Assembly: GCA_026708185.1 (NCBI GenBank) | Contig: JAPOVK010000011.1 | Location: 1 to 64,000 of the forward strand | DNA: 64,000 bases | Reading direction: 5' to 3' | Source: Gammaproteobacteria bacterium | Lineage (GTDB): Bacteria; Pseudomonadota; Gammaproteobacteria; Pseudomonadales; Azotimanducaceae | Part shown: piece by piece, positions 42,824-50,964 of the stretch | How the letters are laid out: each line of letters opens with the position of its first letter | Numbering within the stretch: position 1 is the first letter of the stretch | The notes under the pieces: model-generated | What the model was told of the DNA's origin: nothing | Seen by the model: the letters and a program-made list of their open reading frames with translations, nothing else | Database searches by the model: none | Made by a program: the position numbers and the translations under genes

Positions 42824-43267
42824 TCAGGCGTCGGGTTTCTTAAGCCGGACCGCCAGCACGTCGAAAGCCTCGTCGTGCAGCACCGCATTCGACGTCGAGC
42901 CCATGAAGAACTCGAGGCCGCGTCGCCGATGCGTCCCGATCACCACGAGGTCGACGGCGAGGTCCTTGGCGAGCCGGCGGATCTCTGACGAAGCCGAACC
43001 GCCCCCGAGGTGGCAGTTCGTGTCCGGGACGTCGTAGGCCCGCGTGGCTTCCTTGAGACGCGTCCGCGCCTGGTCCTGGAGGCTGGTCTGGATTTCCCGC
43101 ACCGCGCTCGGGAACTCGCCGCCGTAAGCGAGTGGCAGCGGCTCGACAATGTGCACAACGTGCAACTCAGCGCCCAACGCGCTCGCGAGCGTCGCCGCGT
43201 AGTCGACGACCCGCCCACCGTCCTCGCGAAGGTCTGCCGCGGCCAGTATCCGCGTGTAGATCGGCAT
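42824..43267 (-). CDS. Universal stress protein (UspA family)
   Basis: A 147-residue single Usp domain. It starts PIYTRILAAADL and ends with VIGTHRRRGLEFFMGSTSNAVLHD, near the ATP-binding G-x2-G-x9-G-[ST] motif, so it probably binds ATP. Start ATG 43267 after AGGA. Role in stress survival; no specific partner seen. Confidence 0.87.
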   Translation of the reverse strand: MPIYTRILAAADLREDGGRVVDYAATLASALGAELHVVHIVEPLPLAYGGEFPSAVREIQTSLQDQARTRLKEATRAYDVPDTNCHLGGGSASSEIRRLAKDLAVDLVVIGTHRRRGLEFFMGSTSNAVLHDEAFDVLAVRLKKPDA

Positions 43268-43338
43268 GGGTCCTGTCCTAACGCCCCAGTTGGTGGGATT
43301 ACATCACAGGGAAAAGGCGCCCAAGGGAGCGATATCCG

Positions 43339-44742
43339 TCAGCGCCAGCCCTGCCGCCACGCCTGGTATTCGGCCTGCCGCAGACGATAGCGCGCGATGT
43401 TGCCTTCGTGGAGGCTCATGATCTCGGTCTCTACGACTTCGATGAACCGCGCCTGGTCCGCCGGCGAAACCTGCTCCGCCGCACGTTGCCGCGTCAATGC
43501 AATCGCGGCGTTCTTGTCCATTCCCGTGCGCACCACCGCGGCGACCAACTCGACGACCAGCGCCCGGTAGCGCAGGCGGAACGGGTCCGGTTCACCCAAC
43601 GACTGGCGCACTGCCGAGTAACGCGCGCTGGAGCGCTCGTAGGCCCAGACGAACACGTCACGCAGGAGCTCCACGCGATTCAGCTCGTAGATGGCCAAGA
43701 CGCCGTCGATGTATGCCCGCTCCGGCACGTCCACGAAGGACAGGGGGCAGAGATTGCCGCGGATCAGCGGGATATTCGCGGCGAGGCGGGAGACCCGTTT
43801 GTTGACGTCCTCGAAACCCTGCAGATAGGCGAGGTGCACGAGGGCGAAGAACGCCTGCTCGAAGGGGTCCGTAATCGCGGTCGCGGTGTCCAGAATCTGA
43901 TCGAAGCATTCCTCGATGAGCTGCGGCACTTCGAGCGGATGGTAGACCGTGCCGTCGACGCCGACCGGGATGTGCCGCAGGCGGCCGGTGGCCTGCGGGT
44001 CGGCAAGCAGGTTGTCCGCGAGCAGCGCGTGCAGATTCAGGATGGTGTACCGATTGAAGCCGACTTCGTCGGCCTGGTCGACGAGCAGTTCGATGGCCGC
44101 CTTGTGGTTGAGGATCATCTGCGCTTCGCGCGCATCCTTGCCTTCGGCGGCCTCGCCCAGCTCAAGCAGACGCTCGGTTTCCAGCAAGGAGTAGGTATTG
44201 CCTTCCAGACGGCTGGAGTTCCAGGACAGATCGATCAGCAGGCGGCCGTAGATCGTCCGGGCGTAGGTTCCCGCCGGACGCCCGCCGCCGGGCGGGCGAC
44301 CAATGTCCAGTAGGCGTTGGCGCGCTTCGGCCGGCAAGTAGTAGGTGACGTTGGGCTGGTAGCCATCGAGGAAGGAACGCCGGTAGCCCACGGGCTGCCG
44401 CCTATGGATCGGCGCGCGAATCGCCTGCTTGATCGCCTCCGCCTCGAGCGAGGTCGGCACATAGACCTCGCCACGCGCCGCGGCGCACGCGGTACCTGCG
44501 ACCGAACTACCTTGGCCTGCGTTGGTGATGGGGCGATAGCGACGGCCCTTGCGTTGCCCTTCGGCGATCAGCCGCTTCTGTTCCACCAGCAAGGCGAGGC
44601 GGCGCTGCAGCATGCGTGGCGGCAGCTCGTAGGGCAGTCCCGCGCGGATGGCGCTGACCTGCACGCCTTCCGGGTGGGCCGCCACGACGGTGAGAATGGC
44701 ATCAAGCTCTTGTTCGGGAATCCGCTTCGGCATAAGGCGCAT
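43339..44742 (-). CDS. Fic-domain protein with N-terminal winged helix and altered active site
   Basis: A 467-residue protein. Residues 11-72 form a winged-helix domain. The inhibitory helix motif SSRLEGN (S176, E180, G181) matches class II Fic proteins, where the Glu blocks ATP. The catalytic loop reads QGFEDVNKRVSR (308-319): the canonical HPFxDGNGRxxR His is replaced by Gln. AMPylation may thus be lost or altered; I believe one Fic subfamily shares this NKR-type loop. ATG 44742 (or 44733) faces an AT-rich operator region at 44762-44815, so the winged helix may autoregulate. Confidence 0.8.
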   Translation of the reverse strand: MRLMPKRIPEQELDAILTVVAAHPEGVQVSAIRAGLPYELPPRMLQRRLALLVEQKRLIAEGQRKGRRYRPITNAGQGSSVAGTACAAARGEVYVPTSLEAEAIKQAIRAPIHRRQPVGYRRSFLDGYQPNVTYYLPAEARQRLLDIGRPPGGGRPAGTYARTIYGRLLIDLSWNSSRLEGNTYSLLETERLLELGEAAEGKDAREAQMILNHKAAIELLVDQADEVGFNRYTILNLHALLADNLLADPQATGRLRHIPVGVDGTVYHPLEVPQLIEECFDQILDTATAITDPFEQAFFALVHLAYLQGFEDVNKRVSRLAANIPLIRGNLCPLSFVDVPERAYIDGVLAIYELNRVELLRDVFVWAYERSSARYSAVRQSLGEPDPFRLRYRALVVELVAAVVRTGMDKNAAIALTRQRAAEQVSPADQARFIEVVETEIMSLHEGNIARYRLRQAEYQAWRQGWR

Positions 44743-44761
44743 TATAGGTCGTTAAAGGCTC

Positions 44762-44815
44762 TTATACGACGAATAAACCCAAAATATTGACGTAAAATAC
44801 GTTGTTGTCGTATAA
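44762..44815. promoter_or_regulatory. Inverted repeat between Fic and hydrolase genes
   Basis: TTATACGAC (44762-44770) and GTCGTATAA (44807-44815) are perfect complements 36 bases apart in AT-rich DNA 20 bases upstream of the Fic gene. A further TTATAGGTCG-like stretch lies nearby. Good candidate binding site for the Fic protein's winged helix. Confidence 0.5.
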
Positions 44816-44816
44816 A
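44787..44816 (+). promoter_or_regulatory. Sigma-70-type promoter for the alpha/beta hydrolase
   Basis: TTGACG (44787-44792) and TATAAA (44811-44816) are spaced 18 bases apart on the plus strand and read toward the gene at 44976. The -10 box overlaps one operator arm. Confidence 0.55.
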
Positions 44817-44975
44817 TCCGTCTTATCGTCGCAAATGCACCTCTTGCGGAAGGCGTGCCTAAGGGCACGCGACGACACCGCGTGGACACGCCTGCAGTCG
44901 CGACTAGTCTGCACCGAATCGTCGCGGCCCGGCCAAAGGCTGGGCGCCGCACACCGCTCGACTGAGCAGAATGAC

Positions 44976-45923
44976 ATGACCGACAACGTCGATCCCGCCG
45001 CCATCACCGCGAAGGGCACCCGCTCGGTGCGTACGGAGGACGGACGCATCGTCGAGTACTCCGTCACGGGCAGCACGCGCGCAGACGCGCGGACGGTGGT
45101 GGCCGGGTATTTCGCTGTCACGGAAGAGCCCGCCTCCTGGACCGAGGCGTACCGGTCGCTGAACGTGCGCATGATCAACGTGTCGCTCCCGGGCCTCGGG
45201 ATGAGTTCCCTGCACCCAGGCCGCAGGGTCGCGGACTGGCCGAGAACCGACTTGGCCCCCGTGCTCGAGGCGGAGGGAGTCGAGGACTACCACGTCTACG
45301 GGGTCAGCTACGGGACGATTCACGCGATGGCCGTGGCCCAGCACTACGGCCCGGACCGCGTGCGGACGATGGGGCTGCGCGTACCCTACTTCGGCCTGCC
45401 GCTCTCCGGGGAACTCGGTCTGCCGGACGGTCAGCCGAGGCTGCCCGTGACCGCGGAGGTGCAACGCAACACCCTCGAGGCACGGCGCTGGCGGGTCGCG
45501 TTCGGCCGGTCGATGGGCCTGCCCGTCGACGAGCGTGACCAGAGCCTGGCCCCCCCGGAGGCATTCGAAGCGTCGCAGGAAGCCATGGCGGAGCGCGCCG
45601 CTCGTAGCTTCGCCGCGATGAGCCGCGACTATCCCGAAGAACTGGGGGCGTTGACCGGCAGCACGATCCCGCTGGAGTCCTTGATGTACATGATGGCCCG
45701 CGACGTGGCCCTCGACCTGCCCGGCCTCGATCCGCGCAACGTCACGCTATCGGGCGACCGGGTGGTGGTCTGGTACGCGGCGGACGACGAGGACTGTCCG
45801 CCGTCGCACGGGAAGTGGCTCGCGGAGCACTTCGGCGCGAGGACGCGGGTCTTCGAGGGGTACGGGCACCTCGGCGGCGCCCTGATCGACCACCCGGGGT
45901 TCCTTCGCGAGCTTACGTATTGA
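44976..45923 (+). CDS. Alpha/beta hydrolase
   Basis: A 315-residue hydrolase. The nucleophile elbow VYGVSYGTIHAMAV has Ser111; the acid is likely in VVWYAADDEDCPPSHG and the His in FEGYGHLGGAL. ATG 44976 begins MTDNVDPAAITAKG; an extension to 44802 would only cover leader DNA. Downstream of the promoter at 44787-44816. Substrate unknown. Confidence 0.8.
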   Translation: MTDNVDPAAITAKGTRSVRTEDGRIVEYSVTGSTRADARTVVAGYFAVTEEPASWTEAYRSLNVRMINVSLPGLGMSSLHPGRRVADWPRTDLAPVLEAEGVEDYHVYGVSYGTIHAMAVAQHYGPDRVRTMGLRVPYFGLPLSGELGLPDGQPRLPVTAEVQRNTLEARRWRVAFGRSMGLPVDERDQSLAPPEAFEASQEAMAERAARSFAAMSRDYPEELGALTGSTIPLESLMYMMARDVALDLPGLDPRNVTLSGDRVVVWYAADDEDCPPSHGKWLAEHFGARTRVFEGYGHLGGALIDHPGFLRELTY

Positions 45924-45932
45924 GCGACGCGC

Positions 45933-46519
<587 letters not shown>

Positions 46520-46899
46520 TTACGTTTACTGAAACCGCCGGTCTTGGTTCGGCCATGCATGCGATGACGTGATTGTCCCGGTCAGCATCACCGAGCGAGA
46601 GTGGTTGCACGCGGTCACCGTCGCGCACAGCGGCGTGACCGTGTTTCCGGAGCTGGTTTCCACGGCGAACGCATCTGGCGAGACTGTGTCGACATCTATC
46701 TGGGCCGAAAAGACAACGGGCATTCCGTCCTACCGCCGACAGCCCGTCCACAGATGAGCGCCAGGGCGCTGGCAGGTTCGGGTAGGTGATCGAGTCCGTG
46801 GTAGGCGGACCGAATGCGTGCCTCGACCTGGCTTTCCTGTGCGTTGACACGCCCGAGGTGGCGGTTACTCTGCACCGAGTCGTTGCGACGGAGATTCCT

Positions 46900-47250
46900 A
46901 TGGACCGCATAAAGCTCTACCACAACCCCGGGTGAGGGAAATCGCGCGGCGCGCTGGACATCCTGCGCGAGCGAGACGTCGAGTTCGATGTCATTGCCTA
47001 TCTCAAGAACCCGCTGGATGAGGACGGTCTCCGGGAGATCGCCGCCATGGTCGACGTGGCGCCGGCCGCCCTGGTCCGCAAGGACAAGCACTTCAAGGAT
47101 CTCGGCCTTGATGCTAAGGACTACACGACCGTGGACGCGGTGGTGAAGCTGCTTGCGAAGCATCCGCGGTTGATGCAGCGCCCGATCGCCGTGCGCGGCG
47201 GGCGAGCGGTCGTCGGGCGGCCGTCGGAGAAGGTCGAGGAGTTGCTCTAG
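46900..47250 (+). CDS. arsC: ArsC-family reductase with in-frame TGA at the catalytic Cys (probable selenoprotein)
   Basis: Reads as a 116-residue ArsC/Spx-family protein if TGA 46933-46935 (codon 12) is decoded. MDRIKLYHNPG precedes it and GKSRGALDILRERDVEFDV follows, so the TGA replaces the catalytic Cys12 of the NPxC motif of glutaredoxin-type arsenate reductases. The rest is intact, including KHPRLMQRPIAVRGGRAVVG. A hairpin, CGCGC-U-GG-ACAU-CC-U-GCGCG, lies at 46950-46969, with the loop about 22 bases after the TGA, where bacterial SECIS elements lie. Selenocysteine is the best explanation; a nonsense pseudogene or sequencing error is the alternative. No sel genes are in the window. Confidence 0.75.
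46950..46969 (+). promoter_or_regulatory. Candidate bacterial SECIS hairpin
   Basis: Within arsC, directly after the in-frame TGA: five G-C pairs, a U-U mismatch, two G-C pairs and an ACAU tetraloop. Position and size fit bSECIS elements that recruit SelB; the loop sequence is not decisive. Confidence 0.5.
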
Positions 47251-47268
47251 CGAGACTACTCGAGGTGC

Positions 47269-47374
47269 GCGGGCCTCCCGGCCCGCAACTAAGGCTCTGT
47301 ACCAAGCCGGAATGGCGAACGCGAACGGGAGTACCCGTTCGGGGACGTGGCGGACCTACCGGTCCGCGCGCACC
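47269..47374. terminator. Three consecutive hairpins downstream of arsC
   Basis: Perfect stems at 47269-47286 (GCGGGCC-TCCC-GGCCCGC), 47322-47341 (CGAACGGG-AGTA-CCCGTTCG) and within 47343-47374 (GCGGACC-TACC-GGTCCGC, repeated at 7123-7155). No T tract follows, so factor-independent termination is uncertain. They fill the gap before the ferritin-like gene. Confidence 0.45.
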
Positions 47375-47458
47375 GTCGCGGCTGGCCAACTCGGCTGCGC
47401 TCTCCTGGCGTCGCTGTGAACGGTATGCTTGGCGCGCAGCCAGAACGAGGGATTGGGA

Positions 47459-47932
47459 GTGGGCACGACATCCGACGCGTACCGGGACGGCATCCGGCAG
47501 GCATGGCAGGGGGAGCGATGGGGCAAGGCCTTCTTCGAACGGCTAGCCGCCGCGACGGAGGATGCCGGCCAGCGGTCGAAATGGCAGGTTCTCGCGGAGC
47601 TCGAGGAGGTGACCGGAAACCGGCTGGCGCCGTTAGTCGCCGATGCCGAGGAATCGCCCTCGGCCGACGCCTACCGGCCGCTGGAGTCTGCGGTGTCGGC
47701 CTACGCGGCGCTTCCCTGGGGCGTGGCGATGGAGCGGATGATGACCATTCTGGATCCTGCCATCGAGCGCTTTCGGGAACTGCTGGCCCAAGCGCCGGCG
47801 CAGGAGCGCGACACGGTGCAGATCCTTCTCGATCACGAGATCGCCCTGAAGCGGTTCGCGGAACGGGAACTGTCGGGAGACGCCGATGCATCCCTTGAAC
47901 CCGTCCGGGCCGTGATTGAGAGAGCCCGATAA
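47459..47932 (+). CDS. Ferritin-like (rubrerythrin-type) helical protein
   Basis: A 157-residue four-helix protein. Acidic residues spaced as in di-iron ferritin-like folds: FFERLAAATED, VLAELEEVTG and, at the end, LLDHEIALKRFAERE. GTG 47459 follows GAGG by about 10 bases; a longer reading from 47429 is possible. It precedes a PPOX-type gene by 9 bases and could share its transcript. Iron binding is inferred. Confidence 0.6.
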   Translation: MGTTSDAYRDGIRQAWQGERWGKAFFERLAAATEDAGQRSKWQVLAELEEVTGNRLAPLVADAEESPSADAYRPLESAVSAYAALPWGVAMERMMTILDPAIERFRELLAQAPAQERDTVQILLDHEIALKRFAERELSGDADASLEPVRAVIERAR

Positions 47933-47941
47933 GGAGTCGCC

Positions 47942-48361
47942 ATGACGACCATGACCCAACCCGAAAAGGAGACATTCCTGGCCGGCCTGCACGTCGGTGT
48001 CTTGTCGATCGCCCGCGAGGGGCGGGGGCCGCTCACGGCGCCGATCTGGTACGGGTACGCCCCTGGCGGGGACATCCGGGTGATGATCGGCCGCAACTCC
48101 CGAAAGGCCCGGCTGCTCGCGTTGGGAACCCGGGTGTCGCTGTGTGCACAGCGGGAGTCGGCACCCTACGCCTATGTCACGGCCGAGGGTCCGGTCGTGA
48201 AGATCGAAGATGGCACGGGCGATGACATCCTCGAATTGGCGACCCGCTACCTTGGACCGGACGAAGGCAGGGCCTACGCCGACAGCATGCCGACCGGATC
48301 GAGCCTGACCGTAACGGTGCGTCCGGAGACCTGGCTCGCGGTGGACTACACGAGCGCGTAA
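47942..48361 (+). CDS. PPOX-class (FMN/F420-type split-barrel) protein
   Basis: A 139-residue flavin-binding split barrel of the pyridoxamine-5'-phosphate oxidase superfamily: GVLSIAREGRGPLTAPIWYGY, then NSRKARLLALGTRVSLCAQR and YVTAEGPVVKI. ATG 47942 follows AAGGAG. Could be a general flavin oxidoreductase; substrate unknown. Next gene starts 7 bases downstream. Confidence 0.8.
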   Translation: MTTMTQPEKETFLAGLHVGVLSIAREGRGPLTAPIWYGYAPGGDIRVMIGRNSRKARLLALGTRVSLCAQRESAPYAYVTAEGPVVKIEDGTGDDILELATRYLGPDEGRAYADSMPTGSSLTVTVRPETWLAVDYTSA

Positions 48362-48368
48362 GGCCGCG

Positions 48369-49268
48369 GTGACCGTCCGGGCCAATCTCGATGCGGATTG
48401 CGTGGCGCGCGCCCACGACTTCATCCTGGGCAACGCACGCGTTCTCGACAGGCACCTGTTTGCCTATTTGTTCGACGAGTCGGCGTCGCAACCGGTGCTG
48501 GATGCACTGCGTGCCTATCGCAATCCCGACGGCGGCTTCGGCCACGCCCTGGAGCCGGATAAGCGCTGTCCCGACAGCCAGCCGGTCGATGTCGAGGTCG
48601 CGCTGGGCATCCTGGACCTGATTGGTGCCACCGACGACCCCATCGTCGCGGCAGCGTGTGATTGGCTGGACAGCATCGCCGATGCATCCGGCGGCTTGCC
48701 ATTCGCCCTCCCCAGCGCGAACGCGTACCCGCACGCGCCGTGGTGGCGGACGGACGCGGAGCCGAGACCCTGGATCAACCCCACCGGCTCGATCGTCGGC
48801 CTGTTGACCAAGTGGGGGATCGACCACCCGTGGGTGGCTCGCGGAACGGCGTTCTGCTGGCACGTCCTGGAAACGGTGCCGCCGACGGGATTCCACGACC
48901 TGCGCTGCGCCTTGGCGTTCCTGGAACAGGCCCGCGACCGGGAACGCGCCGTGGCGTTTCTGGACCGGGCCCGTAGCTACCTCTTGTCATCCACGGAGAT
49001 CGAGTTCGACCTCGACGCCGCCGGGTACGTCCATCCGCCCATCGACTGGGCGCCCTTGCCGACCGGTTTCGCCTACGGGCTCTTCGAGCGTGCGGACCTG
49101 GCGGCCGGCCTGGCCGCATTGGCAGGCGCGCAACGGGAGGACGGCGGATGGCCCATCACCTGGCAAGCCATCAGTCCAGGCGTCGAACTCGAATGGCGGG
49201 GCCGAAAGACCATCGACGCGTTGCTCACGTTGAGCGCGTATGCGAGGGCGGGCCATGCCGTGACGTGA
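48369..49268 (+). CDS. Alpha/alpha-toroid (prenyltransferase/squalene-cyclase-like) protein
   Basis: A 299-residue protein with cyclase-like helical repeats: AYRNPDGGFGHALEPDKRCP and AGAQREDGGWPITWQ resemble QW motifs, and WINPTGSIVGLL fits between them. It is half the size of true squalene-hopene cyclases and lacks a clear DxDD motif, so enzyme activity is doubtful. GTG 48369 lies 7 bases after the PPOX gene. Confidence 0.65.
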   Translation: MTVRANLDADCVARAHDFILGNARVLDRHLFAYLFDESASQPVLDALRAYRNPDGGFGHALEPDKRCPDSQPVDVEVALGILDLIGATDDPIVAAACDWLDSIADASGGLPFALPSANAYPHAPWWRTDAEPRPWINPTGSIVGLLTKWGIDHPWVARGTAFCWHVLETVPPTGFHDLRCALAFLEQARDRERAVAFLDRARSYLLSSTEIEFDLDAAGYVHPPIDWAPLPTGFAYGLFERADLAAGLAALAGAQREDGGWPITWQAISPGVELEWRGRKTIDALLTLSAYARAGHAVT

Positions 49269-49293
49269 GGCGGCGCGAGCCGCGGCGCGTTGA

Positions 49294-50964
<1,671 letters not shown>

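Follow-up and report, generated by a model that had tools for sequence, protein, structure and literature searches.

The window analysed here is the whole stretch of 64,000 nucleotides from contig JAPOVK010000011.1 of a gammaproteobacterial assembly (Azotimanducaceae). Its plus strand carries an ArsC-like reading frame with an internal TGA, followed by two predicted RNA hairpins, which are considered together with a SelW-like gene from elsewhere in the same genome:

46900–47250, plus strand: arsC coding region, from the ATG at 46900 to the TAG stop at 47248–47250; 116 residues, with putative selenocysteine (Sec) at position 12
46933–46935, plus strand: in-frame TGA, the putative Sec codon, at the catalytic position in the motif HNPGUGKSR; TGA in 30 and Cys in 32 of 62 loci
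46945–46973, plus strand: hairpin 1, which contains 46950–46969; base about 9 nt after the UGA, register variable between lineages; proposed to act in the SECIS as a spacer or structural part
46975–46992, plus strand: hairpin 2, with the stem GACGUCG/CGAUGUC and the apical loop AGUU (46982–46985), 46 nt after the UGA; proposed to be the part of the SECIS that SelB binds
G000:C42:105022–105228, minus strand: L131, SelW-like gene of the same genome; one in-frame TGA, with a conserved hairpin 21–22 nt after it

The frame at 46900–47250 contains a single internal stop, the TGA at 46933–46935, which is codon 12 counting the Met. When this TGA is read as a residue, the product matches Pfam ArsC at 5.5e-15 and TIGR00014 (arsC), by far its best family, at 1.8e-30, with 105.8 bits against a cut-off of 106.05. 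All 26 aligned members match TIGR00014 at the search threshold. The frame and these matches confirm the starting point of an earlier sequence-only reading, in which the sole in-frame stop of an ArsC-like frame falls on the catalytic Cys of ArsC. The downstream codons, described there as intact, are indeed open as far as the TAG at 47248–47250 and are under purifying selection. Among sequences of solved structures, the window protein matched 16 ArsC or Spx entries at E values up to 0.001, including E. coli ArsC. The nearest relative of the gene, L022, is 91% identical over 414 bases (46839–47252).

No ars genes were recognised among the eight neighbouring ORFs scanned (42827–50964). Four of these neighbours have matches, to a universal stress protein, a Fic protein, an alpha/beta hydrolase and a kinase-phosphatase fusion; two others have matches under the cut-off (a carboxylesterase remnant and PNPOx), and two encode proteins without a Pfam match. 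In the fusion (49297–50964, minus strand), a single open frame carries domains of a PP2C-type phosphatase and a protein kinase. The carboxylesterase remnant (about 46134–46560, minus strand) lies just upstream of arsC, where Pfam COesterase aligns over 28 residues and the frames are apparently broken. Ten of 31 loci (L036 and L038 to L046) have an APH-family phosphotransferase ORF close to arsC (for example, L039:3472–4587, minus strand), beside Sec and Cys forms alike and on either side of the gene; three of these ten ORFs were scanned by Pfam. The second- and third-largest ORF clusters around arsC in the 31 loci overlap arsC itself on other frames.

The residues H8, N9, U/C12, R16, R60, R94 and R107 are invariant in all 26 aligned proteins, and we take R94 and R107 to be the further catalytic, oxyanion-binding arginines of E. 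coli ArsC. The predicted structure has a pLDDT of 95.4, and its nearest neighbours are ArsC structures, with TM-scores to the query of 0.85–0.90 for the first eleven matches. The glutaredoxin-dependent ArsC of E. coli (PDB 1i9d and 1jzw) shares 36–37% identity and the fold over the whole length (TM about 0.87). Its Cys12 and Arg60, as given in the titles of the mutant structures (C12S, R60), carry the same numbers as their counterparts in the window protein, which has Sec in place of Cys12. Around this position, 21 of the 26 Sec forms read HNPGUGKSR, with Gly after Sec in 26 and before Sec in 24, whereas 25 of the 28 Cys forms read HNP(A/R)CSKSR. As judged from the alignment and the predicted model, the catalytic residues and the fold are those of a glutaredoxin-dependent arsenate reductase. 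The enzyme would then be an ArsC with Sec as the catalytic nucleophile, its UGA-12 decoded by the genome's own SelA, SelB, tRNA-Sec and SelD, and it would reduce arsenate, the presumed substrate, to arsenite via a selenium-arsenate intermediate. If this is true, uncultured bacteria would possess in Sec-ArsC a selenium-dependent enzyme for arsenic detoxification.

Comparison of Sec-12 ArsC homologues, proposed as a check in the sequence-only reading, showed TGA at this codon in 30 of the 62 loci scanned (26 distinct sequences) and Cys at the site in all 32 others. The TGA genes come from Gammaproteobacteria, with the addition of two from Acidimicrobiales, which belong to another phylum. A pattern consisting of HN-P/Q-x-(stop or C) with S/C-R after it kept 58 of the 62 loci, of which 28 are Cys forms with TGC (18) or TGT (10). 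The four loci outside the pattern (L057, L058, L059 and L062) were read separately and also have Cys; they are absent from the Cys counts in the dN/dS and hairpin scans. Of the 31 loci obtained by scanning GTDB species genomes, 27 have TGA at the codon and 4 have TGC. Within the order of the window genome, homologues occur in 346 of 390 genomes, and among the matches listed at least three carry a single internal TGA (the window's own, G076 and G315). In a sample of the class, matches of 1e-24 or better were obtained in 21 of 369 genomes, with TGA in the window's own only.

A pseudogene, or a Cys codon misread as TGA by sequencing error, would be a trivial explanation of the internal stop, and the broken carboxylesterase remnant just upstream and the intact Cys paralogue at G000:C51:92848–93192 could be taken in its favour. 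However, TGA recurs in independent assemblies, and no other in-frame stop is present in any of the 26 distinct TGA genes; random nonsense codons in relatives, which the sequence-only reading had named as a sign against its view, were thus not seen. The dN/dS values after the TGA, each against the window gene, are 0.12–0.43 in 23 of 25 comparisons, well below 1, with dS saturated in the other two. Because the TGA is common to 30 of the 62 loci and the later codons are under purifying selection, we conclude that the window gene is neither an error nor a pseudogene, an explanation that retains almost no probability and is refuted in practice. Decoding of UGA-12 by other means (ordinary read-through, a tRNA-Trp or a reassigned code) would account for the open frame and for nothing further. 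Against such decoding, Cys occupies the site in the 32 non-TGA loci (28 of them selected by a pattern that admits only a stop or Cys there, and four read separately), and TGA terminates 22 of the 38 long ORFs kept in the window, although these are mechanical ORFs and some are probably on the wrong strand. The genome also has the Sec machinery described below, and we consider these other means of decoding very improbable.

In a tree of 74 proteins, the Sec and Cys labels need three changes; the well-supported (starred) branches force at least two, and bootstrap trees give two to three. Close Cys forms, including the window genome's own paralogue, are placed among the Sec forms. A late replacement of Sec by Cys in some lineages is possible from this topology, in a tree that is poorly resolved and in which the long row L102 was kept. 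The paralogue, L002 (G000:C51:92848–93192, minus strand), is a Cys-type ArsC in the same genome and is 63% identical to the Sec copy.

Searching the genome for sel genes, another check proposed at the outset, recovered the complete set. On contig 3, selB (385 bits) adjoins selA (545 bits) and tRNA-Sec (68.8 bits), and selD (250 bits) is found on the same contig, all over their cut-offs. Of the 47 genomes searched (two of which appear twice by coordinates), 45 have a selA gene over the cut-off; in the genome of L026 the match is fragmentary, and in G412 there is no match. Because Cys-only relatives carry selA too, the sel genes are consistent with Sec decoding but do not discriminate. G412 is a single assembly with two Sec-ArsC contigs (L044 and L045) and no detectable selA, and it is probably mixed or incomplete. 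Of 30 genomes searched for SelW, 29, among them the window's own, have the gene with one TGA (the sample comprised the own genome, G383 and 28 of the 30 genomes from the GTDB arsC scan, two being omitted), which suggests that Sec decoding is probably in use in the window genome.

Hairpin 1 is the structure closest to the UGA. The sequence-only reading had pointed to a strong hairpin at 46950–46969, at the distance of a bacterial SECIS (bSECIS); this hairpin is present as the core of 46945–46973, but by our strict scan it does not conform to the published bSECIS model. In the window gene it spans 29 nt, and its loop is the G-less tetranucleotide ACAU, which widens to 10 nt when the inner two pairs are ignored. 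In comparison with synonymous-codon shuffles, hairpin 1 is more stable in all 26 Sec genes (mean z −1.84); the same test gave 15/26 and 18/26 in two control regions of the Sec genes, and the hairpin 1 region is below the shuffles in two of the seven close Cys genes. Folding of 46930–46990 was no better than that of dinucleotide shuffles (z −0.01), and the signal appeared only with the synonymous-codon shuffles. Formal covariation is weak: hairpin 1 shows a single double-change pair in each of the two registers, which does not exceed the shuffles. A further C-G to U-A change at columns 24/34 (L051 versus L052) was read by eye.

Hairpin 2 had gone unremarked in the sequence-only reading, and it represents the strongest RNA-level constraint in the gene. 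Across the 26 Sec genes, synonymous sites in its sequence, 46975–46992 (GACGTCGAGTTCGATGTC), hardly vary. At codons 15–19 after Sec, 23 of 1380 comparisons show a third-position difference, versus 6585 of 13084 at codons 20–100 and 1078 of 3175 at codons 1–14; the counts are of pairs among 24 of the 26 Sec genes with the same amino acid and first two bases, L047 and L052 being omitted for ambiguous bases. The two Val codons of hairpin 2 are GTC in 52 of 52 cases, compared with 37% of 205 valines elsewhere, and Asp-18 is encoded by GAT, which gives a G-U pair in the stem, in 24 of 26 genes, compared with 28% of 214 elsewhere. In L039 and L042, GTC occurs twice in hairpin 2 but nowhere else in the gene.

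The window hairpin 2 has seven pairs and an energy of −8.1 kcal/mol, and the scan also listed it with an 8-nt loop (CGAGUUCG) at 44 nt. The loop is kept in 26 of 26 rows. Among the 23 distinct rows, pairing is maintained in 100% of the cells, and three pairs vary on one side and stay paired; no compensatory (double) changes were found among these rows. The energy of hairpin 2 is below that of shuffles in all 26 Sec genes, with a mean z of −1.02 as against −1.84 for hairpin 1. Because five of the seven close Cys genes are also below their shuffles, the case for hairpin 2 rests on its kept letters more than on its stability. When hairpins 1 and 2 were scored jointly for covariation with hairpin 1 in its second register, 0 of 500 shuffles reached the score of the 26 genes and 14 of 500 that of nine genes, a measure that relatedness alone can raise. 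A G-loop hairpin of −7.5 kcal/mol or lower at 38–59 nt was found in 25 of 26 Sec genes and in none of 28 Cys genes, and in 28% of synonymous shuffles. No Rfam family matched in the window at gathering scores. In the window genome, the letters of hairpin 2 are far from rare, occurring at 437 places with up to three mismatches, versus 22 for the reversed pattern, and their only other zero-mismatch copy lies in contig C62, in a frame without a stop in the preceding 60 codons.

The letters of 46975–46992 might instead be kept by a protein-level or codon-usage constraint on VEFDV, the residues encoded there. Among the Sec genes these residues are well conserved, and the GC-rich members commonly use the codons GTC, GAG and TTC. 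Such a constraint does not explain, however, why L039 and L042 use GTC twice here and not elsewhere, or why the disfavoured GAT encodes Asp-18 in 24 of 26 genes. Furthermore, the VEFDV codons show no comparable excess of codon identity in the seven close Cys homologues (seven of the 28 Cys genes were used in all close-Cys comparisons). A constraint of this kind is therefore an improbable explanation of the conservation.

The sequence-only reading of the gene as a probable selenoprotein has thus gained support from the conserved TGA, the selection on the later codons, the set of sel genes, the presence of SelW and an RNA signal that is found in the Sec genes but not in the Cys genes. Taken together, these comparative data make it nearly certain that the window gene encodes a selenoprotein, a Sec-containing ArsC. 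It shares the family (TIGR00014/COG1393) and the motif (U12, S15) of the UxxS-type Sec-ArsC, and it is a new member of that published family, which was described with 14 sequences from the Sargasso Sea (PMC1088965) and with 77 sequences, as 'ArsC 1', in the GOS data (PMC2398784). According to the accessible parts of two reviews, of 2022 (PMC9312934) and 2026 (PMC13188914), arsenate reductase is listed among the selenoproteins, and the latter counts it among those whose functions are largely uncharacterised. A Sec-ArsC is thus less notable than the sequence-only reading expected, because the family had already been published.

The SelW genes of the same genomes offer a comparison for the insertion signal. 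Among 29 parsed SelW rows, one (L125) was dropped because of a wrong frame, and the other 28 comprise 24 distinct sequences, 22 of which have a hairpin of seven pairs with the apex A-GUY-U, 21–22 nt after the UGA. Its third pair is made by several pair types, and its energy is only −7.1 kcal/mol in 17 of the 24 sequences, short of the limit of the bSECIS model. The SelW hairpin of L131 and its relatives resembles ArsC hairpin 2 in its apex (A-GUY-U compared with AGUU), its 7-pair stem and the GUC in the 5' arm. In contrast, the SelW apex, at 21–22 nt, lies too close to the UGA for a hairpin as large as hairpin 1 to fit between them, whereas the apex of ArsC hairpin 2 is at 46 nt. The published bSECIS model, as given in the accessible text of PMC13188914, places the apical loop 16–37 nt from the UGA. 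Hairpin 2 is within this model for its AGUU loop (G second), its 7-pair stem and its energy, but outside it for the distance (46 nt, or 44 nt with the loop CGAGUUCG), and another hairpin lies between.

Because the SelW-like apex sits at 46 nt, and would sit at about 17 nt without hairpin 1, we propose an insertion signal composed of two successive hairpins within the coding sequence. Hairpin 1 would start about 9 nt after the UGA and take up about 29 nt, its structure being kept while its sequence and register drift. Hairpin 2 would follow about one nucleotide later and present the AGUU loop to SelB. With hairpin 1 folded, the loop would come to an effective distance near that of an ordinary bacterial SECIS. 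On the available comparisons, a two-hairpin bacterial SECIS, with the SelB-bound apex at 46 nt and hairpin 1 restoring the working distance, appears moderately probable. The same moderate confidence attaches to the part of this reading by which the element and its spacing would be kept across the Sec-ArsC genes found in Gammaproteobacteria and Acidimicrobiales. As a whole, Sec-ArsC with a tandem-hairpin signal is the best explanation of the locus, and we regard it as likely.

The main alternative accepts the selenoprotein but takes hairpin 1 as the SelB-binding SECIS at ordinary distance, with hairpin 2 as an accessory or stabilising element. Hairpin 1 is at the usual place after the UGA and surpasses the synonymous shuffles in 26 of 26 genes, and the new families of the Sargasso Sea study, ArsC included, are assigned a common-type bacterial SECIS in the accessible text of that paper (PMC1088965). 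A conforming hairpin at 16–37 nt was found in 7 of the 26 Sec genes and 1 of the 28 Cys genes, versus 12% of synonymous shuffles. The remaining 19 Sec genes, the window's own included, have no such hairpin under our scan rule (a G-containing loop of 3–9 nt, a perfect stem of at least four pairs and −7.5 kcal/mol or lower), which is stricter than the published program. In addition, the register of hairpin 1 differs between lineages, whereas hairpin 2, which resembles the SelW hairpin, has its loop preserved in every one of the 26 rows. We therefore consider binding of SelB to hairpin 1 rather unlikely, though clearly the strongest of the alternatives.

With regard to the preferred two-hairpin signal, the accessible text of PMC1088965 states common bacterial features for the Sec-ArsC SECIS and does not mention a second hairpin at 46 nt, which the window gene has; Figure 3 of that paper, which depicts an ArsC SECIS, may already show hairpin 2. 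We found no description of a two-hairpin or differently spaced bacterial SECIS in a search mostly of literature outside subscription, including the accessible parts of PMC8659212, PMC1794560 and PMC13188914. The last of these notes bSECIS elements that do not fit the model and point to distinct classes. SECIS finders seek the apex 16–37 nt after the UGA, and genes like the window arsC would be missed by them or given the wrong hairpin. If it is true that SelB binds hairpin 2, the spacing rule would be one of folded geometry and not of nucleotide count.

Other selenoprotein families were also searched for. In the window genome, the FdhA matches contain no internal TGA or other stop, and none of the three CMD matches has an internal TGA. 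In the genomes of two relatives, CMD-family matches with one in-frame TGA each were observed (L161, G418:C233:12605–12820, and L162, G410:C38:554–694), which are possible AhpD-type selenoproteins.
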